From: Apostichopus japonicus
Taxonomy: Eukaryota > Echinodermata > Holothuroidea > Aspidochirotida > Stichopodidae
Reading direction: 5' to 3'
NCBI RefSeq assembly: GCF_037975245.1
Contig: NC_092566.1
Span: 17,641,001 to 17,705,000 of the forward strand
DNA length: 64,000 nucleotides
The notes under the pieces were generated by a model. That model saw only the letters and a program-made list of their open reading frames with translations. It was not told where the DNA came from and did not search any database. Positions 24,601 through 53,112 of this stretch are shown here, piece after piece (positions within the stretch are counted from its first letter, which is position 1; each line of letters opens with the position of its first letter). Both the position numbers and the translations under genes were made by a program.

Positions 24601-24653
24601 AGGCATTGGCCAGCCACCATGGCTAGTAGTAAGGTTTGTACCACAAGCCTCAT
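9617..24653 (-). CDS. CLCA: calcium-activated chloride channel regulator (CLCA) family protein, 15 coding exons
   Basis: Coding exons, plus-strand coordinates in transcript order: 24489-24653, 21140-21449, 19773-19905, 18893-19070, 17900-18029, 17396-17505, 16383-16607, 15457-15643, 14283-14389, 13494-13617, 12792-12904, 12229-12523, 11668-11874, 11012-11260, 9617-10062. All joins keep phase and total 2979 bases (992 codons plus stop). Start: ATG at 24651-24653 opens a signal peptide (MRLVVQTLLLAMVAGQCLA). Exons 2-5 form the N-terminal CLCA domain, with GCGKQSAYIHFTTDF and the zinc metalloprotease motif HEWGHFRWGLFNEY. Exons 6-9 form a VWA domain with MIDAS DTSSS and LLITDGIDTYP. Exons 10-14 give the beta-sandwich and FN3-like part (STIGRKTSF, DDGIYSRYF, APGDDLDQG). 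The last exon ends in one hydrophobic helix and a short RKKSSDGKSLG tail, so it is type I membrane-anchored. Family members are secreted, self-cleaving proteases that modulate calcium-activated chloride channels; length fits. Exon edges are inferred. Confidence 0.93.
15665..15765. repeat. TTGTCG-rich minisatellite in CLCA intron 7
   Basis: Short degenerate repeats of TTTGTCGAAATTTTG and TTGTCGTGACA lie just upstream (in transcript sense) of CLCA exon 8. They directly abut the inferred acceptor at 15644-15645 and so form part of its 3' splice context. Confidence 0.6.
16195..16300. repeat. degenerate ACATA/ACATAAC repeat
   Basis: Low-complexity stretch of imperfect ACATAACAT units in CLCA intron 7. 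It is a decayed microsatellite with no coding potential. Confidence 0.6.
16960..16992. repeat. (AAT)n microsatellite in CLCA intron 6
   Basis: About ten AAT triplets with one interruption. Confidence 0.9.
18220..18365. repeat. degenerate AATGT/AATGC pentamer repeat
   Basis: Imperfect pentamers (TAATG, CAATG, CAATA) run for about 145 bases in CLCA intron 4. Confidence 0.6.
18741..18785. repeat. (TA)n microsatellite in CLCA intron 4
   Basis: Nearly pure TA dinucleotides with two GA interruptions, about 110 bases from the exon 4 donor. Confidence 0.9.
21503..22101. mobile_element. palindromic foldback MITE with telomere-like centre
   Basis: Inverted termini: left end AAGGATTGGTTCAGGTGTC, and the right end reads AAGGATTAGTTCAGGTGTC on the complement. 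Similarity continues into the arms (ACATGTCTATCTTGTA against ACATGTTTATCTTATA) for over 100 bases. The centre at 21769-21815 is TTAGGG repeats followed by CCCTAA repeats. No transposase frame is present, so it is non-autonomous. I could not settle a target-site duplication. Confidence 0.75.
21769..21815. repeat. interstitial telomere-type repeat, head-to-head
   Basis: About five TTAGGG units (one with an extra G) are followed immediately by about two and a half CCCTAA units. This is the animal telomere motif in the inverted order that two fused chromosome ends would give. Here it sits at the loop of the palindromic MITE, so element structure explains it better than chromosome fusion. Confidence 0.85.
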
Positions 24654-29282: not shown

Positions 29283-29480
29283 ATCGCTTCTCGGCCTTTT
29301 GGCTAAGATCAAGTGTAGTATCTGTTCCCTTTCGAGGGGAATAGTGATACACACCCGACGATTATCACACAGTCACAGTATCGACGCAAGGGGACTGGGG
29401 TTGAGAGCGAATCAGTCGTTCGGCAGTTGGTTTTCGTGCCCATTTGTTTCGGCGGTGCCTGCATGGGCATGTGAATGTGA
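29283..29480 (+). ncRNA. U2 snRNA-like 5' head on an unrelated body (chimeric U2, pseudogene or U2-headed SINE)
   Basis: The first 45 bases (29283-29327) match the start of metazoan U2 snRNA as I know it, from ATCGCTTCTCGGCC through the branch-site-recognition GTAGTA (29315-29320) to TCTGTTC. After that the U2 sequence stops: no U2 Sm site and no stem-loop III/IV sequence follows. Instead there are short hairpin-capable pieces: TTCCC (29325-29329) with GGGAA (29337-29341), GTGATA with TATCAC, and TGCCCAT with ATGGGCA near 29438-29470. It cannot be a working canonical U2. The right boundary given is where the last hairpin ends and is arbitrary. Confidence 0.55.
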
Positions 29481-31304: not shown

Positions 31305-34300
31305 ATGGAGGAAGTAAAGCTGAGTAAAGAAGCAAGAAGAATGAAGAAGGTTTGTTCACGAGTTAAAATTATGTACTCCTAAGTAACGTTTAGGCCTAGG
31401 CTAAGTAAGGCCTAGCTCTAGTGATGGTATTGATACATCATTTGGCCGCATGTTAGCGTAGGTTGGGTTAGGCTATTGAGTGCATGTGCACGCATGGTTT
31501 GAATAGTTTTGGATATAATACGCTCAATATTGATACCTGAAGCCAACAAATTAGTACAATTAAGTTAGTAAACAATAAAGAATAATGTTGGATTTCCTTG
31601 TAGGTGATCTATGAAATATTTGTGCTTCTCTCTCGATTGAAGCCCATTGCACGCTTACCAGTCAAAACGTCCCTTTACCAAAACGTCCCCGTACCAAAAC
31701 GTCCCCGCTTTTGGTCAAAACGTCCCCGTTGGTCAAAACGTCCCCGTAAGTCAAAACGTCCCCGTCTATCACATTCATTCACAGTTGTGAATATATATCA
31801 ATTTTAAGTTATAATTTGGCTAAGTTATCGGCATGCAAGTTGGATTACAAGCGCTAAATAAATCATGAAGGACTATATCGTTTAGGGCAGAGACGGGAAA
31901 GGGGGCTGGGGGCTTTAGCTGTAGTCCTTCTTCTAGACCATCAAAAATATAAGAAGGCAGAATAAATTCTGGAAAAGGGTAGAAAAATAGGCAAACAATC
32001 ACGAAAATCCAAAATATAAAGTGTCTACAGAAAAAAAAATAAACGTATGTGCTGAAGGAAAATATATATCACTTTTATCCAGCCTGTCTCGCATATTCAA
32101 AAAGTAACTTGTTGTACATAAACAAAACAAAAATCTTTTTTATTCCCTTCCCTCAATATCGTATATATTCATTTAGAAACCAACTCGTGTTTAAAAAAAA
32201 TCCTATTACCCTACAACCCTCTTGCATTCCCTTTTCTATTCATATTATCTTACCTCAGAAAATTATACTCAAAAATGTTTCCGCCAGTGGCGGCTGAACG
32301 GTCCTGAACCGGGGGGGCTTGGGGGGCTCAGCCCCCCCAATGAAAAAGTTGAAGGGGCAAATGCATGATAAGCCCCCCCAATATTTACCAAGGCTCCGAA
32401 ACGTGCATCTGCCCATTTTTCAATGCATACTTGTCGATCTGTCCGATGCACACGTAGCCTATACTATATAGGTGTAATAATTTTAGTAATTGCTGGGGAC
32501 CCTCGGCCTGTCCCCTGGCTATAGACCACCTTGTCACCCCAACCACGTCTTCACGCCCCGTGAAAAGTGGAAGAAGTTAGTGTGAGTACCGGTAAGCGTA
32601 ACACAACTTCGTCTTAGGCCAATGACTTGCCTCATTTCAGCCAGTTCTCCAACATCCCCTTACTTAGTGGCGTAGCGTCCATATATACAGTCAGGGGCGG
32701 ATGCCCCCCCCCCCTCCCTGACGGACTCAAATGGACTGCTGGCGCTCTTTTCAGCTTTTCACTACTTTTTACTTATTCGCGATTATTGACTATTTTATTG
32801 CGCTCTCATATACCTATTGACATTTGTCATATTCTGTTGGTGTAATTTTCCGACAAAATGGCGACGACACCTATTTATTCTCCGTTTATCTGCAAATTAG
32901 TAAGGCCCGGAAAGGGTGATTTCCTGCAATCTAGGGAGTATCTTTACTCAAAAATTTTCTGACCGCTCCGCGTCAACCTGTGGTGGCGCTCCGCTTAGAT
33001 AGTGTCGAAAGCGCCCCTACAGACTATTCTTGCCCCCCCCCTGACCAATACCCCTAGCTCCGCCACTGCCCTTACTACACTCAAAAACGTCTTTGCGAGT
33101 ACACTACGAGTAATAGCTACTCTCTTAAAACAAATTACAATGTTTTTACAGACTTTTACGTGCAATCTGAGAAATTGCAGGCTTGAGACCCATATTCTAG
33201 GGCTAGGTATTCGCAGCATAAAACACTCGGGAAGTGCCGTTTCCGGCCATCTGGGGATTTGAAAAAACCCAAAATTTTCTTGTACGCTCCGCGCCAACCG
33301 ATAGTGGCGCTCCGCTTAAATAGTCTCCACACATTAGCCCCCCCAATAATTTTTCCATTCCGCCGCGCCTGGTTTCCGCCCTCATAGCCAGCACTTCCCA
33401 CTCTTAAAAACTGTGTTTTCAACCTAAACTACTGTATACTTATCCTTACTGTTTGATTTGAACTAAAAACATCCACACTTGCATTCCAACTAATTATAAA
33501 AGCTGGGACGTTTTGACTCACGGGGACGTTTTGACTGCGGGGACGTTTTGGTAAAAAACGGGGACGTTTTGGTCTTAAAAAAGCGGGGACGTTTTGGTCT
33601 TAAAAAAGCGGGGACGTTTTGGTAAAGGGACGTTTTGACTGGATACCCATTGCACAGTCTTTTGTGAATTGTTCTAAACCTTGTTAAGACTTTGATGTTT
33701 GTTTCTCATTGATCATCTTTGTAGAAGTTGGCTAAAAAGAACTCTTTGACTAACGGGGGAGTTGAACTGCCAGAAGTTAATGGATTCCACGAAGAAACAG
33801 ATGCATTGGAAAGTGGCCAGGTTATCAAGAGGAAACTTGATGATGCTGAAACACCCATCAAGAGAAAGAAGAAGAGAAAAAGTAAAGAGGTTGCTGTGAT
33901 TAAAGAAACCAATGGACAAGAATTGGAACCTCAAATAACCGAGTTGCTGAAGGAAGATAAACTTGCCGAAAATGGGTCGGTGGACTCTGGTACCGACAGT
34001 CCTAAGAAGAAAAAAGATAAGAAAAACAAGAAAGTTAAGTTTGGAGAGAACGAGACTGTGGATGGAGTCAACGGAACTAACGATGAGGAACCAGAAAAAG
34101 CTCTTCAACAGAATGGAAAGTTTGACAGCAGCGAGGAATCTGATGACGAAATTGACCTGATGAAGAAAACCTTCAGTAGTAGACTGGATGCAAAAACTAA
34201 GGAAGCAGAACAGGGGAAGAAAGTGGTGAGTGCATGTGGTGTGTAATTTCTGGAAATGCAAGCAAAAATCGTTGAAACTGGGGTTAAATCAAATCAAAAA

Positions 34301-37300
34301 TTAACAAACAAATAGAAAATAGAAGCAGCATTTACAGTAATTGTCTGGCCTGAGCTGGGACATAAAATTGACTTTAGTGGTTTACACAGTTTGCCTTTCA
34401 ATTAAACAATTAGTAGCAACCTGTTGGAATTGTATTCCAAAAAGTAGCTTCATTGAGATCATATCCATGAATTTATGTTTGCACATTTTCAGGACTTGGT
34501 TGATATTTCGATATTTTTGACGAGTATCATTCATAACAATTTGTTCACTTTCAACTGAGTCTTGGATTGTCGCTCTAAAAGTTTTCCACCAATGCCTCGT
34601 CCCAAATTTTATTTAGTGAATAAAATGTTTTACTGTAGTGTTGAAAGGCAAGTTTAAAAGTCCTGATAAGGGTATGGAGTGCTGTTCCTTTTGCAATCGT
34701 CACCGATAAATTCGGTTAAATTACACATTGTTATAACCCATGTCTTATCTCAGATTTGCTTGATATCGGCACTTGAAAGTGGGGAGCAAGACATCTCTTC
34801 ATAAGCTAGATAAATTGTTGAGTTCATTAAAGAGAATGAGAGGTGTTCCCAGAAAGACACCATGTTATCTGTTCTCCTACTTTTTTAATTTCCTCCAAAA
34901 AGTCAGTCGAGATGATGTCAAAGGAATTGCCGTCTGAAACTTTCATGACGAGGATTAACAAATACTGATCTTCTGACTTATATGTTAGGCTACATTGTTT
35001 ACTGTGCAAGAGTATGGTGGATATAAAAACTAGCTAAGAAAGCCTTTCATCAGATGAAGGTTAATATCTAAAAACGAAATTCACAATAAAAAATGGTATG
35101 TTACCAATCAAAATGTTTTGATCATAAAACAGTATTTTACAGAGGATCTCAATCCCAGCCGTGCTAGCTACAATTCTTCTCTGGCGCCAAAGTGCCGTAG
35201 CACTGTAGATGAGACTCTAATGACCCAAAAATACTCTCTGTGTATGGTATGGTGATGTAAGGTGTAGACATAAGCACTGCATGGAAGATAACAAGTAATA
35301 TACAGCACTTGAAAAGACAATTTTTTGTAAAACATGTATGACAGTATGCAATTTCTCTCTTTACTCTTTTTTCTCAGACAACTATTGACCCGGAGAAGAT
35401 CAAACAGGAGGGTGCCTTTGAAAACTTTGAATTGTCTGCAGAGACTATCGCACAACTTAAAGGTATGTAGCTACAGTACTTACTGGATATAAGCTGTAAA
35501 TGTTGTTCAAATTTATTTAGAATTCTTGTTTCAAAAATTCTTGTTATGAGCTGATCCATTTGTTCTGTGTACACCAGGTGTTAAAATGGCAACGAAGAGG
35601 CAATTTATCAAGTTAAAGTAATAAATGGTCTCATTCTGTCAGACTTAGCACCAACCCCCCGGTCTCATTCTGTCAGTTTTAACACCCCCCCCCGCAGTGA
35701 ATACAGCGTCAAGCGAGTTAACTCAAGAAACCTACCCCTAATTGCCCATATTTTGTTGTATTTCCTTGATTTATAAATAACTTTCCTGCCCAATCATTTA
35801 GGAATGCCACCAAGTCCACAGTGTGCAGTGCAAATCTGCAGTACTTTTTGTCTAAATCTATCTGTTGTTCTGTTTTACAGCTTCTGGAGTCAATTATCTG
35901 TTTCAAGTCCAATCCAAAACATTCACAGATGTCTTCAGTGGCATTGATGTTATTGTGAAAGCAAGTAAGTGTACATTTATCCATTCTGGGGGTATGGGGA
36001 AAGGGGGGGTGGGGGAAGAGGGGGTGGAGGAAGGGAGAATAGCAGAGGACGAAGGGAGGGGTGGAGGAAGGGGAGGGGGTGGAGGAAGGGGAATGGTGGA
36101 GGAGGGGGAGAGGCGGAGTAAGGGGATGTTGGATGAAGAATGTTATCTTTGATGATGTATTTTGGTATCAAATATTTCCAACCTAGGGCATGAGCAACTA
36201 GGAACAAACTTTCAGCACCAAACCTTTTGATCCTCTTCCTCCATTACAGGAACTGGTACCGGCAAGACGCTGGCGTTTGTGTTACCTCTTATTGAGAAAC
36301 TGAAACATCACAACAAGAAAGTTGGGAGAGCCCCAGCTGTTTTGACACTTCTACCAACCAGGGAGTTGGCAATTCAGGTTGGTTGACTGTGAAAAGATTA
36401 CATCATGTGATTGTCAGAGATAAATTAAATGTGGAAAAACTTAAATCTATCAAGTTGTAGTAAATGACTAAACCTAGGGTAATGCTATGTATACAGTATA
36501 TCTGTGGGGAGCAAGACATCTGCATAAGCTAGATAATTTTTTTTAGTTCATTATGGGGAATGAGAGGTGTGTAGAGTACGACACTGTGTTATCTATTCTG
36601 CCTACTATATGTTCAATTTTCTCCAAAAAGTCAGTCGAGATGATGTCAAAGGAATTGCCGTCTGAAACTTTCATGACGAGGATTAACAAATACTGATCTT
36701 CTGACAGGAGTAGAAATAAACGGATCTGTTAACAGGCCACCAGTTTTCATGGAAATGAGCTTTTTCCTGTAGCGTGTCCATACCATGACCAAATGCTGCT
36801 ACTGTCTATTTCCCATTATTCAACCATTTCATTAGATGTTTATTCTTAACTGTGTACTGAAACTTAAATTGCAACGGCTTTATAACGTAGAAACCAACAA
36901 ATTCTACCTTTGACGCTCCACATCAATATTTTCCCATTCTCGAAATGATCACTGACATTCTTCACACTGTAGATTTGCACTGACAAAACCTGAATAGGTT
37001 TCTCCTTGACTGTACTATGTATATGTTAGGCTACATTGTTTACTGTGCAAGAATATGGTGGATATCAAAACTAGCTAAGAAAGCCTTTCATCAGATGAAG
37101 GTTAATGTCTAAAAACGAAATTCACAATAAAAAATGGTATGTTACCAATCAAAATGTTTTGATCAAAACACAGTATTTTACAGAGGATCTCAATCCCAGC
37201 CGTGCTAGCTTAGTTTTTTCTCTGGGGCCTAAGTACCAGAGCACTGTAGATGAGACTCTAATGACCCCCAAATACTTTCTGTGTATGGGATGGTGATGTA

Positions 37301-40300
37301 AGGTGCAGACATAAGCACTGCATAGAAGATTACAAGTAATATACAGTAGTTCAAACTGTATAATACACCACCTTTCATCTTGTATTGAACTCTTCCTCAT
37401 CTAGGTGTTCAAATGTTACCAGTCAATGGATCCTCAACTCCATTGCCTCTGTGTATACGGTGGTGTCAGCTACAATCAACAGACAAACGCCCTGCGAAGA
37501 GGAGTCGACATAGTCGTGGGAACCCCGGGCCGTATCGGCGATCTCGTCCAACGGCAAGCTCTCGACCTGTCCCAGTTGCAGTTTGTGGTGTTGGACGAAG
37601 TAGACCGCATGTTGGACATGGGTTTTGCTGCTGATGTAGAGAATTTAATTACTCCTTCCTACTCCAGGGGTAAGTGGTGGACCTTTAAAGGGTAGTGCCA
37701 CCTTCTTCCGCACAACCCATTGACATAGACATATTACATGACAAAGTTCATACCCCTCCCCTCCCTCCCTCCCTCCCTCCCTCCCTCCCCTCTTTGAAAT
37801 TTATTGTAAAAGTTTCAATACATAGCAATGTCTGCTAAATATGTTGAATTCATGTCAAATTAAGTATGTGACTGACTCAAGTGTGATTTTTAAGTATGGC
37901 TGGGTAGATGGCTAATGACTAATAGGACAGGGAAATGAATGCCAACTTTGTATATTGTGATAATCATATGCTGACTGAACTGTGATGGTAAATATGCTGA
38001 CGGGGGTATGATGTTGTAAGGGGTCTGACCTACTGTATTAGGGCAGTGGGGTCTGGCAAAAATTACTCTAACCTCTCAGCTTTGTGTCCAATGAAAACGT
38101 TCATTGAAGTCCATTTGGCTCATAGGATGATGGCCTTGTGTTACTGGTCTCGATTGGCTGTGTGCAATTTGCAGCCGTTGAAAACGTCAGTATGTTCTGT
38201 ATTTGAGTAAACATTGACTGAACTGACTAAACATTGTTCTGTATTTGAGTAGTTAAGATGTATCCATCATTGTTCATGACTGATATTTAATGATCTTCTG
38301 AATAAACATTGTTCGGAATGACCAAATTTCCCTTGGAAGTCATGTGACAGATGCGTAGCTACTGTACCAAAAAATCACAACTAGAGAGCTTTGACAAACC
38401 ATTAATATGCAGATACTTACCAATATGTTGAATTTTCTCCAAAAAGTCAGTCGAAATGATGTCAAAGGAATTGCCGTCTGAAACTTTCATGACGAGGATT
38501 ATCAAATACTGATCTACTGACTAGAGGAAAAATAAACTGATTTGTTCATTTAATTGTCAGTGTGACATGCCTGAAGATACTTATTGATGAGCAACATGCC
38601 AAGAATATTCACAATTTAAGCCCAAACTACTGCAAGTGTATAAAACACAAAACTACTGGCTAACATCAAGTTTTCACTGGCATTTCCCTGAATTGCAACA
38701 CACGTCAGTAACTGTTCAATGTTAAAGGAGCAGTCCAATGATATTTGCTGATAATAAACAACTACAGGGCATATGTGAGGTACGAAATATCATGCAAAGT
38801 GTTGACTGACGATTAGACCCAACTGATTTTTGATGTTAATTGGTAGAATGTAGGACAGCCTTTTCTTTTCTACTGGCATGAAAAGCATCCTGATGTAGGA
38901 ATCCTTGAAAATCAGTCCTGGACTGTTGTCAGATAGTTGAAAAATGACCGTTAGTAACTCTTTGTAAACTGTCGTCTTTGTTTTACAGAAAGTCAGTCAA
39001 ATCCGCAGACGTTACTGTTTTCGGCGACGATGCCTCCATGGGTGTTGAAGATAGCTAACAAATACCTGAACAATAGTTACAAAACAATAGATCTTGTTGG
39101 GAAAGAAGGACTGCAAACTGCAACAACTGTCACGGTATGTCTTGACTTTTTTCTCTCTTTATTTTTGGTGGGGGAAGGATGGATGGATGTGGGTGGGTGG
39201 GAGGGTAGGATGGGAAGAATGGAATGGATGTGTAGAGAGTCATTGAACATTGTCACTGATCATACAAAAGCTAGAGGCGGTTACAAACGTATCTATAACG
39301 CACTAACAGCTTAAAAATGTATTTTGAAAACTGTTGTTCTGAAGCATTAATGTACTGTGCTATTTATTGCACATATGACAAGAAGATAAACATTTATTAC
39401 ATAACTTTCCTTTCAGTTGCCCTTCTTGGTTGTGTTTCCTCTATGAACTTGTATTGTTCCCCTAGATTAGCATGTTTCTGTTTGAAGAAGAAAAAAAAAA
39501 AAAATCTTCTAGAGTAGGATAACTGCTGCATTTGTTTCTGTCCTCTGAGAGTTCATATGAAGACCATAATCAGAGATGCCAGAATTCCGGCAATAGCCAG
39601 AATTCCAGCTTTTTCCCGATTTTGAAATTTGATTCAGGCTCCACACGATCTTTCGGTCCCAGTTGAAACAGACATCAGCTTTTTCCGCGAATTTCTAACT
39701 ATTATCCTAGCACACTGTAGCATACGCAAATTGGAGCCAATACCGCAATTTTTTCCCTGGATTTTCATAACGTCCCAACATTAGCTTAGATAGTCTTTGG
39801 GACATCCAAGTCTCCACAACTTTCAGGCCCTAGGGGTAAACCCTGCTGGCATCCCTGCATAATGCTGTCCGATAGTCAATTATGCTAGATTCTTTTTGGC
39901 ATCACAGATTGACAAAATATAAGTTTTGTTAGCTTTTTGCTGAGTGTTAACTGCTTACATTTTAAGGTTTTAAAGATCAGTTGTGATAATAATACAAGAT
40001 GCTATATTGACAAACTTCTGTTATCATGAAAGAACAACCACCGTTTAAACTCACTTGGCATTCTCATGTCACTCCCTCTGGTATCTTGCCAGACACCATC
40101 TATATCATCGTGAAAATCAATCATATTCATTAGTCATGCAAAAACAAAATTGTGCTTTCTTAAAAATATAGCTTGATGTAACTGTGTTGCCATGGAAAGT
40201 TTATCCAGATTTGACCATTTCAATTGATGTGGACAGGTTTGTTCAAGATTGATGTCCTGTTCTATGTCCAGTACTGTCATATTCTTCAGTAGTAAATACC

Positions 40301-43300
40301 ACGTTGACCCTGTTTCTCTCCGCCCGTTATCCTTTATGCAGCATTTAGCTATACGTTGCAAACCTGGTCTGGAACCAGGCCTCATCACTGACATTTTCCA
40401 AAGGTATGCTGGGAAATCCGGCCAAGGTATTGTATTCTGTCAGACCAAAAACCAAGTGAATTCCATGCTGGGAGACGATAATTTTGGGCTCCATGCCATG
40501 CTTCTACACGGTGACATCGAACAGGCAAGGAGGGAATTGACGCTTAATGTAAGTTTAATGCTTGTTTGCGTTCAAATTAACTGATTGAAAGTCTTTTTTC
40601 TTCCTAGTTTTTTGTTTTCAATTCCTTTGGATGACAGTCTTATTCCACTGTAAGATAGTCAGGAGGGGGGGGGGGGGGTTGGGACGCGTGCAGGGAATAA
40701 TTTCTAGTTTGCAACTCTACTTGTGTAGAAATACTGCTATACAAACTTCTAACTTGTATACACTTAGCAATTTTACATTATGTAACATTTTGCTCAGGTA
40801 TACTGGATGTATTTGTCCCTGGTGTGGATGTCAACTTAACTGGCTCTGAAGATTTTGGTGTACATTCAGACAAATTTAGGCAAAGCAGTTCAAATGTCTA
40901 CTATCAAAAATACAAGGAAAGAATAGGGACTGGTATAGTTGTGATGCATAGATGGGTTACAGTGTTAAGAAGTATAAACAATTCCACTCCCAGTGTTTCA
41001 ATCAACTTCATAAGGATTGGGCTTCTTCAACAGGGCTTACCTTAACCTTTGCAATGGTGTTAACAAGACAGTGGTCGTACATTCTTCGAGTAAAAGCCAA
41101 TAGCCTCTTAATCTGTACTTTGTTATGAGCATCGGTTAGCAGTACGACTGAAACACAGCAATCTATCGTCACTATCAATGTTGCTTTTGTGTGTGTGGTT
41201 TCTGTGCATTGTTGTGACATTTGTTTTTTAATCATTAAACTGAGGTGTACAGGTACCACCAATGATTTAATATTCAAATGAGTGGTCGTATTTGGCGAAT
41301 ATCAATTAGTTGAGCAGGTGCTATATTACCATGTATAGTATGTGTGTCTTTTGTCTGTGTGCTTGTGTGTTGTGGTAGATGGATTCCGAAACAATTCACC
41401 ATGGACAATTCTGAGCCAGATAAGTGATACATGAGTGACAAATAAGTGTACACATGCACAAACAGAGGCAATTGGTAAACAAGACCGATTCACCGAAGTC
41501 TTGTTGCATTTCCATTTTCCTCACAAAGTCGGTGGAAATGATGTCAAAGGAATTGCCGTCTGAAACTTTCATGACGAGGATTATCAAATACTGATCTACT
41601 GACTGGAGGAAAAATAAACTGATTTTTTTTTAAGTTTGATTGATAATCTGCAAACACTCCAAATATGCTGTGGATTTTACTGGATGCAGAATCTGAATTA
41701 TTATTGGCAAAACAAACGCGATCTATGATCAATGTGGTAGTGATAACGTTAGCGCACAATGTCGCCAAACAGCTACTGAATATCTTACAGACTTAAAAAG
41801 TCCATTCGGGAAAGTGTTTTGTTGGTCTTTCACACCCAAGAGTGGAGACAAGTACATCTATTGGCTAACTGAGATGAGTTTTGAGAATGCTGTGTCTGAA
41901 AATCTTTTAAGATGATAACCTTCTATGAAAGCTGAGCATTGTCAATATGACTGCTTACATTCACCTTGGCAACATGAAAGGAAACAACAAAGTGAGGGAA
42001 ATTAAGGTCTCTTTTTATCCTCCAATGGGCATCACAGATTGACCAAATATAAGTTTTGTTAGCGTGTTGCTGAGTGTTACTGGTTGGACTTTGTTGAGGT
42101 TTCAAAACATCAGTTGTGGCAATACAGGATGAGACTTTGAACATTGTATTGTTGGCTTATTCATTTTACTATGGAAAAACGACCAGCTCTTTAAATACCA
42201 CCACTAAGAGAAATCTATTAGGTTGCATGATGCATGCATAGTAAAAGGTATCCCATTTCGAGTACTGTTTTAGACTTTTAGAGGATGGCTTAGGGCGCAA
42301 AGTTTATTTTCATATTTTGTAGATTATTAAAAAAAAAGTACACTGACCCTTTTAAACAGAGCCTAGGCTCATCAGTAAAAAGACTACAGCAGACTATATA
42401 GTCTAATGCACAGATCAAATATAGGTCGGTTCTCAGGTACAACAGGAAACCCAACAGGATCTAGAACATGAGAATTTAACACCTCTCAAATGACTTGTTT
42501 ATGATATTTTGCAATTTATGTCAAGGACGAATTGCATTGAGTGGCATTCAAGTGGTTAATAAGGTAAATGACTAGGTGTTAGTTGAGTGTTTGGATTAAT
42601 GAAGCAATGAATTAACAAAACCATTAAAGGCATACAACTCAGTTTGCCATTCTTCTTTATTAATTTAGGTTTAAAGGAGCACTTCTGAGATATAGTATAT
42701 TGTAAGGTACCAGAACAACTGTAGACATTTTACTATTGCTCACAATTTATCCATTTTTATCTCAATACATTACATGTATAGAGATATTGTAACAGTAAGT
42801 GGGACTTTCTCTTCTCTTAAAAATTTTTCAGCGTCTTCAAACAAAGTTCTTTTTCTCTGGAATTTCCAGAGCAAGAATATATCATATAGACCAACAAAAG
42901 TTACTATTTTTTATTCCAGAATTGTATCTCATTCTGTGACTTTTTCACCGATTTATGTCCAAATCGGGCCAATTTGGACTGAAAACACACTTTGACAGAC
43001 CTGTTTTGCACACGCTCCAAAACTTATGTTTTATGAAAGAGAATAGAATAGAACTGTCTTTCAACAGTGGTATCGTCTAAGATAGGGTCCTATGTATTAT
43101 ATATTTTATTAAAATTTTAAACTTTCATTTGTTGTTTACAGGTAGGTATTAATAAGAATTTTACTACTTGTATATGACATTTAATGGCTTTTATTTGCTT
43201 GATTTGATGTTTAAATGATTTTTCTTTCTTAAAACAACACTGAGCTGCCGCCCCTACTTTTAGTAAAAAGGTCCGTTTTTGATGATTAAGCCCCGCCCCC

Positions 43301-46300
43301 AAGTCTGTTTTGTAGCAGATTGGCTATGACTCATAACAGCTACATGTTAGATATACGAAAATGGCTACCCTCGCGAACAATTTTCTGTTCTGTAGTTAGG
43401 TACGCGGAAAAACGTGGGTTGTTTCGATATCTAGAAGTGGACACAGTTTTGATGGTAGTCACCACTACAGTCTACAGTAACATACAGTAGGTCAATAGGC
43501 CTAGCTCTCAAGGCAGGCATCAAGAATATGGTCGAGTTGTTCGCCTCTTCTAATTTGGCTGTTGTCAATGACGTCAAACTATATGACCAAAAAGTCCAAC
43601 TGAGACTGACCTACAGGGATGTAAGTCTTCCGTATTTTTACGGAAATCCGTTTTTTTTTTATTCCAATAAAGTTCCACAAAATTGTTCGAATATCAAAGA
43701 CACAACGCGGCAAAAATGCCTGGCCCGTTGCAGCAAGCTAACTTCAACTTTCACTCATCGATCAATCAAAATACCATTCCTGTTTCGCATCATCGCATTG
43801 CACTGTACAACATTGTGCCATGTGAATATCGTTGCGTACGTGCGAACTTCAAATCGCCATAACTCATTTCTGTTCTTTGAAAAACCTTGCCTAATTCACG
43901 TTGATTGGACTGCTAATTAATATCTTCGTAACTGCTGGTGCTCGACATAACTTTCGGAATTAACGCTTGTGATATTTGTGAGCGGCGGAAATCTACGGGA
44001 TACGCATATGAAAGTCGATATTTGTGATCGCATTCGAATGTGAGACTGTTTTTTATTCCGTAGTTCGCTGCGACGTATTCGTAACTTTGAGGTAGCCTAA
44101 CATAACGATAGTGTGTAAGTAGTAAGAACTAGGGGTAAGATGTGTTAGCGCTAATACTTCTGAGCTAGCCTAACATAACGATAGTGTGTAAGTAGTCAGA
44201 GCTAGGAGTAGGATGTGTTAGGACGGCATTCACCCGGGGTCTCCGAATAGTTTTCCGGTTTTTTTTTTTGGCTGCACTTACATCCCTGGACCTAAGATGA
44301 AGGATACCACATAAAAAACAAGTTCTTAAATATTCTATGACATTACTAAACCTTGCAACGTCGTTCTTTCGACTAACAGGCAATGAGCGCTAAAGGCAAG
44401 ACTAGCAGGATAAAGTGTAACCTGCAGAGACTATTCGTGGCAAAAATGCAAGTTATATATTTGTTGTACCATGATTGATATTGATAATTGTAGAGACAGA
44501 GCAAAGATTTGAAATTAGGAATAAAAATTAAAACTTCCAGTATTGAGATACTGCATCATTGATGCTCTTGTTGGACTACCACATATCGAGACTAGAATTT
44601 TGGCTTAATGCCATCCTTTAATCTTCATCCTCTCCTTAGCAAATTTTGATGAAGTCTAGTGATTAAGCCTCAATAAAACAATTGGATTAAATGACTCTGG
44701 TGGACTGGATTAAACCGATGGCTTTAGTTCACACTGATGGCTTCAATTTGTACACTTGATGGTCTCAGTTCAACACTGATGGCTCCAGTGCACACTAATC
44801 CTCTAACTAAAGAGCTTCAGAAATGCTTCAAGATCTGAAGCTGTGTGGAAGACTGATTAATCAATGAAAAAACAAATTATTGTATTTAACTTTGTAATTA
44901 TTTATCGTTTGTCAAACATCTCTTCTACAGAAATTTCGTCAGGGTCTATTCAAGGTCTTAGTGACCACAGATGTGGCTTCAAGGGGATTAGATATACCAG
45001 AAGTGGACTTAGTTCTGCAGTGTCAGCCACCCAATGTAAGTTATGGATGGAATTCATGGACTAGGGAATGTCGTGCCGAATGGCAGGCAATTAATTTGGA
45101 AGGAATATAATTTGCAACCAGGGCTTTGCTCTGTTTTCATCAGGTTTTGCATGATCAGCGATGTTCAGGATTTGCCATCTTGAATATATTCTATAGATGT
45201 GAATCCTGCTGACTAATTATTACTCGTCTGCATGTTGCTGGATATTAAAACAGAAAGTCCTTTGCCAAAAAAAATTTAGGATGAGTGGGGACTGATTTGA
45301 ATGATCTCACAAAACACTTTGTAATGTTTAAATGAGGAAAACGGACTAAACAAAGCTTCATTCATACCTAGTAAAGATTCCTAAATCCTATTGGTCCATT
45401 CAGGTCAGCTGACCGTGGTTAATCCTGTGAGTAACGCACGGTAAAATTACAGGGCATCACTTTAATAAATCTTTGGTTATATGTAACCAAAAATGTTTTG
45501 TTTTTTGATTTTTCCCCCACACAAATGGTAGCGTATGAATGAACGGGGTTAATCAACGGTCTAGCGTGCGTTACTCACATGATTAATGCACTCCGGGTGT
45601 TAATGCTATCGCTGGATGCACTCGGCTCCGCCCTCGTGCATCGCTTGCACTATCCCCGGATCGTGCATTAATCCTGTGAGTAACGCACGCTAGACCGTTG
45701 ATTAACCCCTTATTCAATCAAGTGAAGAGTTTTGAAGTAAAAGTGTTGTGGGGCCTCAAAATATATTCTAGGAATCCCTCCCCCCCCCAAACACACCTCA
45801 CAAACACCCTTTTTTCTTCCCAGTTGTTTCAGAGTTTGACTGCAGTTGACTACATTGGTGATCGAATTGAAATGCTTGTTTAAGTTGTAGAATTGGTGAC
45901 CTTCAAAGTAAATTGATTCCAATCACGTCAGTCAGATGTAAACACAAAATTAACTTTGTTATTCTCGATAGCAATACTTTTTAGATTTAAAGATAAATTT
46001 TAATTGTTACACCATTCTTGATTTCTGTCTCTTCTAGGATGTAGACAGTTATATTCACAGATCAGGGAGGACGGGGCGTGCGGGCAGACCTGGTGTAAGT
46101 ATATGTCTCTACATGCCAGGATGCGAGCAGGAACTACAGAACGTTGAAAGAAGAGCAGTGAGTAACATTATGATTATTGATACAGCACTAACAACATGTG
46201 CACAGTAACTACATCTGAACAGGAACAACATATGAATAGGAACAACATGTGAATAGGAATAACATGTGAACAGTAACAACGTGCACAGGAACAACATGTG

Positions 46301-49300
46301 AATACTAATAACATGTGCACAGTAACTACATGTGAACAGGAACAACATATGAACAGGAACAACATGTGAATAGGAACAACATGTGAATAGGAATAACATG
46401 TGAACAGTAACTACATGTGCACAGGAACAACATGTGAATAGGAATAACATGTGAACAGTAACAACGTGCACAGGAACAACATGTGAATACTAATAACATG
46501 TGCACAGTAACTACATGTGAACAGGAACAACATATGAACAGGAACAACATGTGAATAGGAACAACATGTGAATAGGAATAACATGTGAACAGTAACTACA
46601 TGTGCACAGGAACAACATGTGAACAGGAACAACATGTGAACAGTAACTACATGTGAACAGGAACAACATGTGAACAGGAACAACATGTGAATAGGAACAG
46701 CATGTGAATAGGAATAACATGTGAACAGTAACTACATGTGCACAGGAACAACATGTGAACAGGAACAACATGTGAACAGTAACTACATGTGAACAGGAAC
46801 AACATGTGAACAGGAACAACATGTGAATAGGAACAACATGTGAATAGGAATAACATGTGCACAGTAACTACATCTGAACAGGAACAACATGTGAATAGGA
46901 ACAACATGTGGACAGTAACAACATGTGAACAGTAACTACATGTGAACAGGAACAACATGTGAACAGGAACAACATGTGAACAGTAACTACATGTGAACAG
47001 GAACAACATGTGAACAGGAACAACATGTGAATAGGAACAACATGTGAATAGGAATAACATGTGCACAGTAACTACATCTGAACAGGAACAACATGTGAAT
47101 AGGAACAACATGTGGACAGTAACAACATGTGAACAGTAACTACATGTGAACAGGAACAACATGTGGACAGTAACAACATGTGAACAGTAACTACATGTGA
47201 ACAGGAACAACATATGAACAGTAACTACATGTAAACAGGAACTACTTGGGTCCAGTAACAAAATGTGCACAGGAACAAAATGTGCACAGGAACATGTGCA
47301 CAGTAACTACATGTGAACAGGAACAACATATGAACAGTAACTACATGTGAATAGGAACAACATGTGCACAGTTACTACATGTGAACAGGAACAACATATG
47401 AACAGTAACTACATGTGAACAGGAACAACATGTGCACAGTAACTATGTGTGAACAGGAACAACATATGAACAGTAACTACATGTGCACAGAAACAATATA
47501 TGGACAGGAACAACATGTGAGCAGTAACTACATGTGAACAGGAACATGTGAACAGGAACAACATATGAACAGGAACAACATGTGCACAGGAACAATATGT
47601 GCACAAGAACAACATGTGAACATTAACTACATGTCAACAGGAACAACATGTCAACAGTAACTACATGTCAACAGTAACTACATGTCAACAGGAACAACAT
47701 GTGTCCAGTCACTACATGTGAACAGGAACAACATGTGCACAGGAACAATATGTGCACAGTAACTACATATGCACAGGAAAAACATGTGAACAGTAAAGTT
47801 GCACAGGAACAACATGTGAATAGTAACTACATGTGAACAGGAACAACATGTGTCCAGTAACTACATGTGAACAGGAACAACATGTGAACAGTAACTATAT
47901 GTGAACAGGAACAACATGTATCCAGTAACTACATGTGAACAGGAACAACATATGCATCGTGTTTACGGTAACAGCACATGTATAGTCACATGTGCACAGT
48001 AACAAAATGTACACAGAACAACATTAGCACTTCGAACATAACTGTACAGAGATGGCATGCTTGGTTTAACATCATGCGTACAAAACAACACCTGTACAGT
48101 AACATGTGTACAGTAATGACATGAACACAGAAAACTCTGTTTCGTTTCAACATGGGTACAGTACGTAATTTGTCTAGCAGAGCTGTTTGTTTATCTCTCC
48201 TCGTGGTAACGGCTGAGATGACATGGGCATCTTGAACTTCACACTGTGAGTGCCCGTGGATGAGTATGTTCGCAGAACTAACAAGATTTTTGCCCGTTCC
48301 CATGGTTTTGCTGTAGTTGTCCGTAGGGATGAATAATTTAGCACGAGTTGTTTCTCTTTGGAGGAGTTTGTTTCTCTTTGATGGGTTCTCCTCTTCTCTT
48401 TGAAGGGTCTCCTTTTTGTAACTATTTTTATTGTACTTTGGGCTATATCCTTTATAGGTGTCTGCTGGGAATGAAGAGTTGTAATATTGTATTTGACAAA
48501 TTCCTATGGTTAACTCAAATTGGAGTAGTTGTTACCATACATTGTGTTTGACCCATGTAGGAGTGATATAAATGATCTTTTTATTGAATATTCATATCAC
48601 TTCAGATACATTCTATTGCATCAGATGGATTTGACTTACTTTATTGAGATTATTTCTCTCGATACTGAGCTAATTGTGAAATTGAAATGTATGATAAGTC
48701 TCTACATATTCATCTCTATATTCCTCACAAGTTGCAAATATGATGAAATGACTTTAATGTCTCATGTGCTTTCATCCCACAGCAACTTAAGTTTAAGCAA
48801 GTACCCCCACCCCAGCCAGAAGAACTCTACACAAGCAAACTTGAAAACCTGGAAAAGTAAGTTGTTGTGTTTGGAATGTTACTCTGCAACGTTCCAACTG
48901 CTGTCATTTAAGTGTTAATCCCAAATCACAGGGGGAAAACAATCCATGTGTGATGCATAGAAAATTCTCTCTTCAAATGCTTTGAGATGACATCCAAATG
49001 GATGGATCAGAAAGAGATTGATTATACTGTCTGCTGGCATCTTCATTCTAGCACTCTATATGCAATGTGTTAATTGGTTAAAACATACCTGGTCAGCCAT
49101 GAATGAAGTTAAAGTAGAGCCGTCCTCTCTCATCTGGGAGAGATTGTTGGATTAACCGATGGGGGACTACAAAAACTGGGCACTCGTGGTGTTCTCTGTG
49201 CAAATGAAGTACTTCTGTCGTACAGTACAATAGTACATGCACTCCACAACCAACCCTAAAAGCAGCAGACCAGATGAACAGCCAGTGAATCAGTGGAATA

Positions 49301-52300
49301 CTCTGCATATTTCCAGATACACACAAATCATTATCTGAAATTAATATCATAATATGATCTACCACCAGTGGATGTATTTTTGGTTGAATTTCTTCTTTCT
49401 TCCGTTATTTCGATTCTAGTTCCTTTGAGAAAGTCCCGCAGCAGTCCAAGGAGATGCTCGAGAGTAGGGCACAGTCTCTTCTGGATAAATATGGCCCATT
49501 GGAAACGGTCACATCTCTTCTTGCCCACGTAGCAGGCCTGCAGGATATGTGCAGAAGGTCAAGCTTGACTTGTCTACCGGTGAGTGTTACAATGGGGTAC
49601 AAAATAACCATTCTGTCTGACAGTGCATTGTGAGGGGGAGGGGGATCTACCGGTGAGTGTTACAAGGGGTACAAAATAACCTTTCTGTCTGACATTGCAT
49701 TGTGGAGGGGAGGGGGAGGGGGGTCTACCGGCGAGTGTTACAAGGGGGTACAAAATAACCATTCTGTCTGACAGTGCATTGTGGGGGGGAGGGGGAGGGG
49801 GAGGGGGGTCTACCGGCGAGTGTTACAAGGGGGTACAAAATAACCTTTCTGTCTGACATTGCATTGTGGAGGGGGGAAGGGGGTTAATATTGATGCAGCC
49901 TTGCTGCAGGTGAGCTTGCAGCTGCTGCAGCTTGCCTTTCTTTCTCTGTTAAGATAATCAGATAAAAACAATCCTAACATGTTCATGGAGATAAAGAAGT
50001 CCATTTGCATTCATTTCATGTGCAATTTGGTTTGAATTTACCACACATAGTAGTGGCTATCTTGTCCAGATGTATTTAAAAACCAGCTATACATGTAAAT
50101 ATTAAAAGCGGGTAGAGTTAATCCAGTTGAAACTGTATCAGGAAAGTTGAAAGTGTGTCATGGAATGTCGGTTGTTTGTAACTATGGTATGGCTGGGTCA
50201 TAGTATCACTGACAGTTCAAAGCTTGAATCAATAATGTCAAGGTGAGTGTTCTCATCAATCCTATCAGATGTGGGGAAGACTTTTGTTAACCGTGTGCAG
50301 TTAAACAGGTGCTGGTTATACTCTGTGTGTGTGTGTTTGTATGTGCAACTCACCACAGACACAATCTAAAAATCACTTTCAAAGTGACACGAGTGTCAGT
50401 TTTGTATGCAAATGTCAAATAGATGTGAAGTAGATGAGTCTAAAGTTCAAGGTACATTCACTCCCTCGGTAACTACAGTAGTTCAGGCAGATGTTGCAAT
50501 TTGTATGCAACTTTCTCTCCAAAAAGTCGGTCGAGATGATGTCAAAGGAATTGCCGTCTGAAACTTTCATGACGAGGATTAACAAATACTGATCTTCTGA
50601 CTGGAGTAGAAATAAATGGATCTGTTAGTTAATAACATTTGATGGTCTGTGCTGCCATTTGTTATTAAAGACAAGTGAACAGTTTTTTTTTTTTTGGTTG
50701 GCAACAGATATATGCTGGAACTGATTCAGTTTGTAATTGTACATCCCCCCCCCCAACCTGTAAAGGCAGAAGCAGAAAATATTTCTTAGTTTAATGCAAA
50801 AAATGTAGATTTCCCCAGAATATTGACTAAGTTTACCCCAGTATTGCTATTTTTACAGTACACTTCCTGAAATATGATTCAACTCAATCGATGTGTGACC
50901 AAATATTGTACAAATTGGTAGTGTGATGTAAAAGGAAAGATAATAAAAAACCAAATAAAGTAAAGTCAAAGTCAAAAAGCAATTTATTAAAGCTGCCGCT
51001 CAAAATGTTTCCTTCTTAGAATCATGTCTCATAAATTGAGGAAGCTTTCCCTACGAAATTCTCTTCCCCTTATTCAGAGAAAAACTACCTTCAAAATAAC
51101 GAGTGAACTCTCCATTGGTAACCGTGACGAGCTATCTGACATCCTCCAACGAAAGCTCGGAGATGACGCTTTTAAGATGCAGAAGAATTCGGTCCTGCTC
51201 AGTAAAGACCGGAAGACCGCCCTCTTTGATACTGAATTTGAGATAGAAAAGCAAGTTCTGGTAAGTACCATCTTCAAGTGGTTTAAAAGTGTCCTTGAAT
51301 ATTCCCCATGACCCCACTTCCCACCCCTTAGTGTGAACGCAAAGTGATTTCTAGTCGAAAAATTTGGAAAGTTGCTCAAAGATCTATAACAAATTATGCA
51401 CGATTATTTCCACAAAAAAAGTTTGGCCTTACACTCTTTGAAGGGGACTTGAAGCTACGAGCTGAACGGATAAATTTGTCAAAAGTCGGTTTAATGCATC
51501 AATTACTGTGTAACCTTCTATCATTGGTTTAATAAAGCATGGCTGGTACGTATTTCTGTCGTCAGTTGTGTAAACAAGCTTATGGTAGAAACGTTTTGCA
51601 CAAAGTAATTCGTTCTGTTGATACATTCATGACGATACATTGGTTGGTTAAGGGAGTAGTTTTTGAGGCCTAATGCCAGTTCTATTTCTTGTCCTGAAGA
51701 ACCAAAAGGCGAGAAGTGATAAGGTGGAAATGATGTAACAGGAATTGCCGTCTGATAGCCAAGTGCTAATTGATGGTAGAAATCTAACTACTGATCCACC
51801 AGAGAGACAGTGAAATGTCTGACGTACAAAAGAAATTGTCAACCACAGAGGAGTTGCTAAGTTACGAGATAATGTGAAATACTGGGAAAACACTCGCAGA
51901 TTATTGTATCAGATACAACAAATGAAAAGACTGTGCAAAATTTTGCTTTTAAGTTTCTACACAATTTCAAGAATGCAAAAGAGACGTTAAGATATCACAA
52001 GAAAAACAGTGGGGAACCATCTCTGATATAGCAAGCAACAATGGACAGCTATTCTAAGCACCTTTGTCCAAGCACCATATCAGAATGACGTCACAGAGCC
52101 TCTAGTGCAATTGAAGGCCAACTCGCTTTAATTTAATCAGCTTTGTGGGTTGTTGTTCTTATGTAATAGCATTAATGCCACAGAGATGTCGGTGCCCCCT
52201 AGCAAGCTGGCCGCCATGACCCTCAGAGAGCAACAGATTCTGCAGCATAGAAACCGCAGGATATATTTGCTGCTCCAAAGTGCCGTAGTATATTTGAGGC

Positions 52301-53112
52301 CCTCTATCGCTCTTCCTCGGAAGGTGTCCCCCTCCTTCGTCGTTTTGAAAGTTTTTTTATCTCTTCTTTTTCAGGATGCTTTTGCCGATGACGAACAGAC
52401 TCAGGTGGAGACTTTGGACGAATTTCCGGATAATTTCTTCACAGACTTCTATCATGGTAACTCGTTTGGAAGGAGTCGAGGATTCGGAGGCGGCAGAGGA
52501 TATGGCGGGAGAGGCAGAGGGAGAGGTGGTTTCCGTGGTGGTAGAGGAGGGTTTGGTAGGGGAGGTGGATTTGGTAGGGGAGGTGGCAGAGGAAGAGGAG
52601 GAGGGGGTCGTGGTGGTGGCAGAGGCAGAGGGGGTTTCAGAGGAGGCAGGGGTGATGGAGCGGGATTTAAATCTGGAAGAGGAAACTTCCGAGGTGGGTT
52701 CAACAGGGGAGGCCCCAAGACTGGTGGTGGTGAGTAATTTTCCTCACAAAATCCCAGAGGTCTTTTATGGTCTGACAGAGAGCCAAGACTACTTGCCTCT
52801 CAGCCGGGAAGTGATGGAATTTTTCATCGTTCCTGGAAACGGTGTGCCCGGAAACCCGAGAATTCTTCTTGGTATATGGCGAAGATTGACCCGTTTGAAA
52901 ATACTAGCGGTGCCTGCAGCTGCACATGTGACCGTGGGGTGGGTGTAGTGTCATTGGAAATATGACCACATTGCCAAGCACCATTGGGCAATGCTATCCC
53001 TATGTGGATGATGGGTAGTCGAGCATACAAGGATTACCCTGCTAAATGTGAAAAGGAAGTTGCATGACGACCTTCCCCCACAGGATCTGGTAAAAATCCA
53101 TTCCCAATTTAG
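31305..53112 (+). CDS. DDX21: DDX21-type nucleolar DEVD-box RNA helicase, about 15 coding exons
   Basis: Coding exons: 31305-31349, 33725-34225, 35378-35462, 35881-35964, 36250-36377, 37405-37669, 38989-39134, 40342-40548, 44931-45035, 46038-46157, 48783-48856, 49420-49579, 51078-51260, 52141 (or 52186)-52729, 53084-53112. Phases agree. The N-terminus is Lys/Glu-rich and disordered ([19 protein letters not shown]). Then come the Q-motif region ([10 protein letters not shown]), Walker [24 protein letters not shown] in [37 protein letters not shown] and [11 protein letters not shown]. After the core is a GUCT-like region (exons 12-13), then an FRGGRGG/RGG tail in exon 14. DEVD in place of DEAD, GUCT and RGG together mark DDX21/DDX50 (Gu). 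Known role: unwinds RNA in the nucleolus, needed for rRNA transcription and processing and for snoRNA release. A GTGAGT at the end of the RGG exon and a phase-matched acceptor at 53083 suggest a short last exon ending GKNPFPI. Uncertain: the start of exon 14, and a possible small in-frame intron ending at 52375. Confidence 0.95.
32285..33371. mobile_element. hAT-like element nested in the previous one (middle layer)
   Basis: Begins CAGTGGCGGCTG and ends GCCGCGCCTG, flanked by GTTTCCGC on both sides (32277-32284 and 33372-33379), an 8-bp duplication. A GGGGGGCTTGGGGGGC segment near the left end and AGCCCCCCCAATAAT near the right are imperfect inverted partners. Interrupted by the element at 32665-33068. 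No transposase. Confidence 0.85.
32665..33068. mobile_element. hAT-like MITE nested in the middle layer (inner layer)
   Basis: Starts TAGTGGCGTAGC (first base changed from the family CAGTGG) and ends GCTCCGCCACTG. CCCTTACT flanks both sides (32657-32664 and 33069-33076). It is an inverted relative of 27477-27857: both contain the poly-G/C stretch, AATGGACTGCTGGCGC or its complement, and the conserved core with GCGCTCCGCTTAGATAG. Confidence 0.9.
34780..35310 (+). repeat. intronic duplication, unit A (partner 36507-37350)
   Basis: About 530 bases in intron 2 (from GTGGGGAGCAAGACATCT, through snoRNA copy 1, to ATACAGCACTT near 35306) align with intron 5. The partner has roughly 300 more bases just after its snoRNA, so one copy was interrupted or trimmed after duplication. 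Confidence 0.85.
34900..34979 (+). ncRNA. box C/D snoRNA-like RNA, copy 1 (DDX21 intron 2)
   Basis: C box ATGATGT (34912-34918), D' box CTGA (34934-34937), C' box ATGACGA (34945-34951), D box CTGA at 34965-34968 or 34973-34976. The ends AAGTCAG and CTGACTT pair as a 7-bp terminal stem. Guides would be the bases before D' (AAAGGAATTGCCGT) and before D (AGGATTAACAAATA). Box C/D snoRNAs direct 2'-O-methylation, mostly of rRNA, and in animals are usually released from introns of nucleolar or translation genes. I could not name a target. Confidence 0.72.
35985..36126 (+). repeat. purine-only G-rich tract in DDX21 intron 4
   Basis: About 140 bases almost wholly G and A on the coding strand, starting 20 bases after the exon 4 donor, with many runs of three or more G. 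The intron is only 285 bases long. Such a tract can form G-quadruplex or triplex structures; any effect on splicing is inference. Confidence 0.8.
36507..37350 (+). repeat. intronic duplication, unit B (partner 34780-35310)
   Basis: Second copy, in intron 5, including snoRNA copy 2. Shared stretches include TGTTAGGCTACATTGTTTAC, AGCCTTTCATCAGATGAAGG and CAGAGGATCTCAATCCCAGC. The extra ~300 bases between about 36707 and 37018 are absent from unit A. Confidence 0.85.
36629..36706 (+). ncRNA. box C/D snoRNA-like RNA, copy 2 (DDX21 intron 5)
   Basis: Identical to copy 1 from the C box through the D box. The terminal stem shortens to about GTCAG with CTGAC, because AGG follows instead of TT. The downstream AGTAGAAATAAACGGATCTG is shared with copy 5, showing that the duplicated unit is larger than the RNA. 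Confidence 0.7.
37752..37792. repeat. (CCCT)n microsatellite in DDX21 intron 6
   Basis: About nine CCCT tetramers, 80 bases after the exon 6 donor. Confidence 0.9.
38444..38523 (+). ncRNA. box C/D snoRNA-like RNA, copy 3 (DDX21 intron 6)
   Basis: Same boxes as copy 1 with ATGATGT after TCGAA. The D guide reads GATTATCAAATA instead of GATTAACAAATA. The terminal stem AGTCAGT pairs fully with ACTGACT; here TACTGACT replaces TTCTGACT and lengthens the stem. Confidence 0.7.
39575..39780 (+). repeat. dispersed repeat (related copy at 53385-53540)
   Basis: Contains AGCTTTTTCCGCGAATT, ACTATTATCCTAGCACACTG and TAGCATACGCAAATTGGAGC. Close versions occur downstream of DDX21 at 53385-53540. It lies in intron 7; boundaries and class are unknown. 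Confidence 0.65.
39890..40010 (+). repeat. intronic repeat A (partner 42020-42135)
   Basis: About 120 bases of intron 7 align with intron 8: GGCATCACAGATTGAC, AATATAAGTTTTGTTAGC, TTGCTGAGTGTTA, ATCAGTTGTG. Length and an internal ATATAA followed later by an ACA would be compatible with an H/ACA RNA, but pairing is poor in this copy, so I call only a repeat. Confidence 0.6.
41526..41604 (+). ncRNA. box C/D snoRNA-like RNA, copy 4 (DDX21 intron 8)
   Basis: C, D', C' and D boxes unchanged; D guide with ATCA as in copy 3. The stem is AGTCGGT with ACTGACT: the A-to-G change relative to copy 3 is tolerated as a G-U pair. This copy is 3.3 kb from the next exon. Confidence 0.7.
42020..42135 (+). repeat. 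intronic repeat B (partner 39890-40010)
   Basis: The better-preserved copy. An H-box-like ATATAA is followed by GTTTTG, which can pair with CAAAAC just before an ACA-containing end. An H/ACA interpretation is possible but weak, because the partner copy does not keep the pairing. Confidence 0.5.
44093..44230. repeat. 73-bp direct duplication in intron 8
   Basis: TAGCCTAACATAACGATAG followed by TGTGTAAGTAGT occurs at 44093 and again at 44166 with a few substitutions. Simple two-copy tandem duplication. Confidence 0.8.
45545..45709. mobile_element. short foldback MITE in DDX21 intron 9
   Basis: Inverted arms of about 47 bases, GGGGTTAATCAACGGTCTAG to the matching end at 45709, with few mismatches. 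The spacer is about 70 bases and CG-rich. A fragment of the same sequence (TTAATCCTGTGAGTAACGCA) lies at about 45419-45438. No clear target duplication. Confidence 0.8.
46190..47950. repeat. 17-bp satellite array, about 100 units (DDX21 intron 10)
   Basis: Units such as AACAACATGTGAACAGG and AACTACATGTGAACAGT, 17 bp each, with larger patterns built from combinations of variants. It begins about 35 bases after the exon 10 donor. Since 17 is not a multiple of three, three units make a 51-base, 17-residue repeat, and the minus strand stays open in several frames (up to 207 codons). These are translated satellite, not genes. Confidence 0.95.
49570..49870 (+). repeat. minisatellite derived from the exon 12 splice donor, 4 copies
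   Basis: The unit of about 75-85 bases begins with the last bases of exon 12 and its donor: TCTACCGGTGAGTGTTACAA, then GGGGTACAAAATAACC, TTCTGTCTGACA and a GGGGAGGGGG stretch. Copy 1 is the real exon-intron junction (49580). Copy 2 near 49650 keeps GTGAGT; copies 3 and 4 near 49725 and 49812 read GCGAGT. Confidence 0.9.
50524..50602 (+). ncRNA. box C/D snoRNA-like RNA, copy 5 (DDX21 intron 12)
   Basis: Matches copies 1 and 2 across both guides (D guide GATTAACAAATA). Stem AGTCGG with CTGACT uses one G-U pair. It lies 476 bases upstream of exon 13. Confidence 0.7.
51717..51803 (+). ncRNA. box C/D snoRNA-like RNA, copy 6, diverged (DDX21 intron 13)
   Basis: Keeps the C box (ATGATGT) and the D' guide (GGAATTGCCGT followed by CTGA) but has a different 3' half: C'-like TTGATGG and a new D guide (AGAAATCTAACTA) before CTGA. 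The terminal stem GGTGGA pairs perfectly with TCCACC directly after the D box, close to the textbook kink-turn layout. Stem and second guide changed while the boxes and first guide stayed, which supports a functional RNA over a decaying repeat. Confidence 0.7.

Follow-up and report, generated by a model that had tools for sequence, protein, structure and literature searches.

A six-copy family of candidate box C/D snoRNAs in the introns of a DDX21/DDX50-type helicase gene of Apostichopus japonicus, with a predicted guide for a conserved 18S rRNA methylation site

One nucleotide of eukaryotic 18S ribosomal RNA (rRNA) is assigned to guide RNAs of the box C/D small nucleolar RNA (snoRNA) class in very different lineages. 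It corresponds to Um578, guided by snR77, in yeast, to Um627 (HBII-135) in human, to Um580 (AtsnoR77Y) in Arabidopsis and to Um571 (CD21) in Dictyostelium (PMC8817022, in the part accessible to us), and is labelled the DC-A site of the decoding centre (PMC8307265, likewise in part). According to the excerpts at hand, SNORD65 and the SNORD49 pair (printed as SNORA49A/B in one paper) lie in the same human host gene, SNHG29, and the chicken mRNA CR391615 hosts a U627 guide in intron 4 and a SNORD49 counterpart, GGgCD65, directed at 28S-C-3911, in intron 2. Here, we analyzed a 64-kb window of the Apostichopus japonicus genome (contig NC_092566.1, positions 17,641,001 to 17,705,000; coordinates below are those of this whole stretch), where a DDX21/DDX50-type DEAD-box helicase gene carries six intronic copies of a box C/D snoRNA-like element. 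Judging from the sequence, we consider it likely that the six introns each contain a gene for a box C/D snoRNA whose D' guide directs methylation of the nucleotide equivalent to Um578/Um627, which would assign a target to a family earlier thought to be orphan.

The host gene model has GT/AG at all 12 internal junctions and a single open frame; its first exon was not located, and the numbering of introns assumes one upstream exon. The predicted protein consists of an acidic/lysine-rich N-terminus, DEAD and Helicase_C domains (Pfam matches at 2.8e-41 and 9.8e-30, respectively), a GUCT-like domain (E 5.7e-05 and 23.7 bits, under the Pfam cut-off of 27), and a glycine/arginine-rich C-terminus. Among PDB chains, the only structures compared, the best match is 6l5m_A, 'Nucleolar RNA helicase 2' (1.4e-126), which we take to be human DDX21. 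By sequence, the host is of DDX21/DDX50 type, with a helicase core closest to DDX21 among PDB chains, a comparison in which DDX50 is not represented. Most of intron 10 is occupied by what appears by eye to be a long tandem-like array of AACATGTGAACAGGAAC-type units (about 46190-47960).

Measured from terminal stem to terminal stem, the copies are 77-78 nt long and lie always on the sense strand, one per carrying intron, in six of the 12 introns defined (Table 1), with none in introns 3, 4, 7, 9, 10, and 11 of the spliced host model. An earlier note on this DNA had proposed the same layout, which the spliced model and a profile search both uphold; its copy starts were right to within 1 nt, except for copy 6 (6 nt off). 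A 40-nt core is identical in five copies (0 mismatches), with 0 matches in 100 shuffles. The profile, built on all six copies, finds the same six in the window (E 4.4e-28 to 1.4e-18), and copy 6, itself included in the profile, is clearly related to the other five (E 1.4e-18). Because the six built the profile, the informative part of this search is the absence of any further copy in the rest of the window, where the next best E is 2.9. Homology among copies 2-5 spans 115-137 bp and extends past the snoRNA ends.

Table 1. Host gene and intronic snoRNA-like copies (window coordinates)
Feature	Location	Coordinates	Strand	Details
DDX21/DDX50-type DEAD-box helicase gene		33725..52738	+	13 exons modelled, E2-E14
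snoRNA copy 1	intron 2	34901..34978	+	D' guide 34923-34933, D' box 34934-34937; outer stem lost on 3' side
snoRNA copy 2	intron 5	36629..36705	+	D' guide 36651-36661; outer stem TTTTCTCC/GGAGTAGAAA
snoRNA copy 3	intron 6	38445..38522	+	D' guide 38467-38477; outer stem TTTTCTC/GAGGAAAA
snoRNA copy 4	intron 8	41527..41604	+	D' guide 41549-41559; outer stem TTTTCCTC/GAGGAAAA; stablest fold
snoRNA copy 5	intron 12	50525..50602	+	D' guide 50547-50557; outer stem TTTCTCTCC/GGAGTAGAAA
snoRNA copy 6, divergent	intron 13	51723..51800	+	D' guide 51741-51751 unchanged; 3' half unlike others; terminal stem GGTGGA/TCCACC

The C, D', C', and D boxes are present in all six copies, as had been claimed. Box C, whose consensus is RTGATGA, reads ATGATGT throughout (six of seven consensus letters), both box D and box D' are CTGA in every copy, and C' is ATGACGA in copies 1-5 and TTGATGG in copy 6. 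Copies 1-5 have two CTGA motifs, 53 and 61 nt after box C. The first was taken as box D; the second was rejected, as it would leave the RNA without a stem and give no better guide.

The terminal stem forms in the minimum free energy folds of all six copies. In copy 3 it has ten positions with one mismatch and a fully paired 7-bp outer part (AGTCAGT/ACTGACT), in copy 4 all ten positions are paired, two as G-U, one of which lies in the outer part (AGTCGGT/ACTGACT), and copy 6 has six pairs of different sequence. Pairing thus persists through sequence change among the copies, and this part of the earlier description stands, but the two quoted stems belong to copies 3 and 4 respectively, and in copies 1, 2, and 5 the stem is broken by a 2-nt internal mismatch. 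In the predicted folds of copies 2-5, an outer stem continues beyond the terminal one. It is formed around CTC/GAG for copy 3, CCTC/GAGG for copy 4, and CTCC/GGAG for both copy 2 and copy 5. Outer stems help the release of intronic snoRNAs that lie far from the 3' splice site, and would fit the distances of 399-3324 nt found here. Compared with shuffled sequences, copy 4 folds best (z-score -4.01, 0 of 200 shuffles as stable), followed by copy 5 (-2.48, 4 of 200), copy 6 (-1.89, 9 of 200), and copy 3 (-1.57, 14 of 200). A generic scan of both strands for C/D boxes plus a guide returned eight candidates, of which three are family copies, including the two top-ranked. Another of its candidates, at 44659 in intron 8, was inspected and left as a probable chance occurrence. 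Boxes, stems, and domain matches together bear out the idea of a structured intronic box C/D family, with signs of constraint, in a DDX21/DDX50-type gene.

All six copies, the divergent copy 6 included, have the same D' guide, GGAATTGCCGT. The earlier note had found no rRNA site for the guides of this family, which is not supported for D': this guide forms 11 bp, including two G-U pairs, with GCGGUAAUUCC of 18S rRNA, which places position 578 of an 1800-nt 18S, a conserved methylation site, opposite the fifth nucleotide from the box (N+5). Guides of this class are expected to form at least 9 bp and to have their target opposite the fifth nucleotide from D or D', and 578 is the sole position in that 18S to reach the score (10.0, the next best rRNA duplex scoring 9.0). 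Shuffled guides equalled the match at 578 in 2 of 20,000 cases, and at any of 15 known 2'-O-methylation sites of 18S (the yeast set) in 5 of 20,000. The 18S target stretch is nearly universal in eukaryotes. The rRNAs that we scanned are not those of this species and come from eukaryotic ribosomal DNA on contigs in prokaryotic assemblies, probably contamination. Seven such contigs with 18S-type sequence were found in GTDB assemblies (L001-L007), of which one (L006) has no more than 149 nt of it, which the microsporidian model scored. Exact searches of IMG/VR with eukaryotic 18S, eukaryotic 28S, and snoRNA guide patterns gave 0 matches each.

Concerning the guide before box D, it varies among copies and is probably, on its sequence, without a conserved target. 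The best rRNA duplex of a D guide, 13 bp with 2 G-U in copies 3 and 4, falls at position 122 of the 1800-nt 18S. We took this match as due to chance, as it is absent from the 15 yeast sites, shrinks to 8 bp on the 18S of contig L003, and is not among the rRNA matches listed for copies 1, 2, 5, and 6. Human 18S does have Um sites near this region, at 116 and 121.

Several observations weigh against a functional guide for 18S. The folds of copies 1 and 2 are not clearly more stable than those of shuffled sequence (z-scores -0.78, with 39 of 200 as stable, and -1.16, with 25 of 200), and copies 1, 2, and 5 were missed by the generic scan, whose stem rule allows one mismatch. The distance of the copies from the 3' splice site exceeds the mammalian optimum, which is roughly 70 nt. 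No copy reaches the gathering score of any Rfam family. The agreement among three 18S sequences at the target is by construction, because the search pattern that retrieved the contigs itself included the site. When any position in rRNA is allowed, 102 of 1000 shuffled guides equal the D' guide, and the other five candidates of the generic scan score duplexes of 9.5-10.5 against its 10.0; since shuffles and unrelated candidates reach similar duplexes, the case for 18S rests on the site rather than on duplex strength. The main weakness is a G opposite U at the very nucleotide to be modified, in all six copies, where the snoR77Y consensus would form A-U. Of 104 sites assigned in Arabidopsis, 100 show 9 or more consecutive pairs, and G-U pairs can occur in the terminal regions (PMC8053127, in the part accessible to us). 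A literature search for a direct test of G-U at the modified nucleotide returned none in the excerpts seen. Fractional methylation at the target would be a fair prediction.

Of the rival readings, the least unlikely is that the family is the counterpart of SNORD49, with a D' guide whose methylation target is the conserved C of 28S in UCGGCUCUUCCUAUC (human C4426), and that the 18S match is incidental. In a low-threshold Rfam search, the SNORD49 model scored 17.9-24.2 bits on the six copies (gathering 37; E 0.065-3.2) and gave the best match of all by E-value, on copy 5 (0.065, 24.2 bits), while the snoR77Y model scored 24.3 bits on copy 1 (gathering 52; E 1.3). A snoR38 match on copy 4 (24.7 bits, gathering 45, E 4.9) and one to a bacterial small RNA were taken as chance. 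The guide core of SNORD49 is the same as that of the family at ten of 11 positions, both have UGACGA as C', and on 28S the N+5 pair would be a Watson-Crick G-C. The three guides form a series, with SNORD49 GGAAGUGCC, the family GGAAUUGCC, and snoR77Y GGAAUUACC, in which the family is intermediate. However, on the 28S site the family mismatches at positions 1, 6, and 7, the SNORD49 consensus only at 1 and 6, and predicted duplex energies are reversed between the two: -17.5 kcal/mol on 18S versus -13.9 on the SNORD49-type 28S site for the family, and -13.6 versus -19.2 for the SNORD49 consensus. We regard a SNORD49 counterpart as unlikely. We give a similarly low probability to a hybrid guide serving both sites, by which one six-copy family would make both methylations in this lineage; if true, this would mean that the 18S wobble and the 28S mismatches are tolerated, with copy number compensating for weak pairing. 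Because all scores are below gathering, we consider the family, in the preferred reading as an 18S guide, a functional counterpart of the snR77/SNORD65 guides and not a member of an Rfam family. With the 18S pairing and a weak match, on the same guide, to the snoR77Y model, which bears the name of the plant guide for this site, the suggestion that the family may be undescribed for lack of an rRNA target is not supported.

The pattern of conservation among copies provides a further line of evidence. Copies 1 and 2 show 0 differences in 78 positions of the snoRNA core, against 19 of 118 in the upstream flank and 25 of 336 in the downstream repeat: the core is unchanged while the flanks have diverged by 7-16 percent. 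The downstream sequence is a direct repeat of introns 2 and 5 (34979-35314 / 37020-37355, 92.6 percent identical). Combined with the similarity of the two introns upstream, from 34779 / 36504 on, it points to a larger duplicated segment common to both. Any two of copies 1-5 are distinguished by 0 to 5 of 79 positions, and these lie in both arms of the stem, at the letter preceding box C, and at one D-guide position. In copy 6, box C, the D' guide, and D' are retained, with 25 of 32 letters unchanged when counted from box C, while for its 3' half shuffled sequence aligns with copy 5 equally well in 157 of 500 cases. The simplest account of this pattern would be selection on the D' guide. Gene conversion could account for how alike copies 1-5 are, but would leave the retained guide of copy 6 unexplained. 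The copies probably arose by duplication inside one host gene, which is described as the usual route for box C/D families in the accessible parts of PMC8178906 and PMC2653536.

These data also bear on a reading of the copies as functionless sequence, either a mobile repeat or retroposed snoRNA pseudogenes. Near-identical cores in mostly unrelated flanks, six times in one gene, would be consistent with it, but the copies lie on one strand, one per intron, with none elsewhere in the window, the duplicated block takes in the outer-stem sequence, no poly(A) tail is seen by eye, outer-stem pairing is kept in four copies, and the core of copies 1 and 2 has stayed unchanged between diverging flanks. 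We consider such an origin quite improbable. Finally, it is very improbable that the snoRNAs act mainly in cis on splicing or retention of the helicase's own introns: half of the modelled introns of the gene carry a copy, and cis roles of snoRNAs have been reviewed (PMC11028025, seen in part), but no sequence feature demands such a role and the guide matches 18S (host-intron targets were not sought).

On the favoured reading, the snoRNA would be released from the helicase pre-mRNA with the help of the terminal stem and, in four copies, of the outer stem, and would assemble with fibrillarin and its partners. The element before D' would then pair with the decoding-centre loop of 18S (GCGGUAAUUCC) and direct 2'-O-methylation of the equivalent of yeast U578 / human U627, as snR77, SNORD65, and snoR77Y do. 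The copies would have been duplicated inside the host gene and kept by selection on the boxes, stem pairing, and D' guide. Expression, processing, and methylation, as well as selection as the cause of conservation, are what we infer here from the DNA.

Elsewhere in the window, the sole Rfam match at gathering threshold is to U2 small nuclear RNA (29283-29359, + strand; 56.5 bits, gathering 46). Almost perfect over the first ~45 nt of U2, the match lacks most of the remainder and reads as a truncated copy of U2 or a short element derived from it. An open reading frame at 24450-24749 (- strand) has a sub-threshold match to the N-terminus of CLCA, a calcium-activated chloride channel (E 0.00019, 21.4 bits versus 25.6), and neighbouring open reading frames at 57764-59667 (+ strand) resemble an integrase-type transposase core. 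A search with ARAGORN found no tRNA in the window.

This is probably a known class of guide RNA, whose mildly interesting features are its copy number and the wobble at the modified site. Our results suggest that a helicase gene of ribosome biogenesis can house, six times over, the guide for a methylation described from yeast, human, plant, and Dictyostelium, and the G-U at the modified nucleotide, common to all six, offers a natural test of how strict N+5 pairing is. A literature search for DDX21 as an intronic snoRNA host found no description in the titles and abstract starts listed, and one aimed at invertebrate snoRNA surveys found no useful one among the papers listed.

By complementarity, the family resembles snR77, SNORD65 (HBII-135, which we take to be the same RNA), snoR77Y, and CD21 in its predicted target nucleotide at N+5. 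It has GGAAUUxCCGUCUGA in common with the snoR77Y consensus, and differs from it by the G in place of A opposite the methylated U. Use of the element before D' is shared with the chicken counterpart, GGgCD16 (PMC2653536, in part). According to the same partial source, the chicken U627 guide is listed once, in intron 4 of CR391615, whereas the present family has a DDX21/DDX50-type host and six copies. Paralogues within one host, with guide regions kept, are also described there for the chicken HBII-251/U103 homologue in introns 9, 12, and 21 of PUM1, and human SNORD58, as far as the excerpts tell, similarly has paralogues within RPL17. The PUM1- and RPL17-hosted families differ in target and host from the one in Apostichopus japonicus, which counts six copies.

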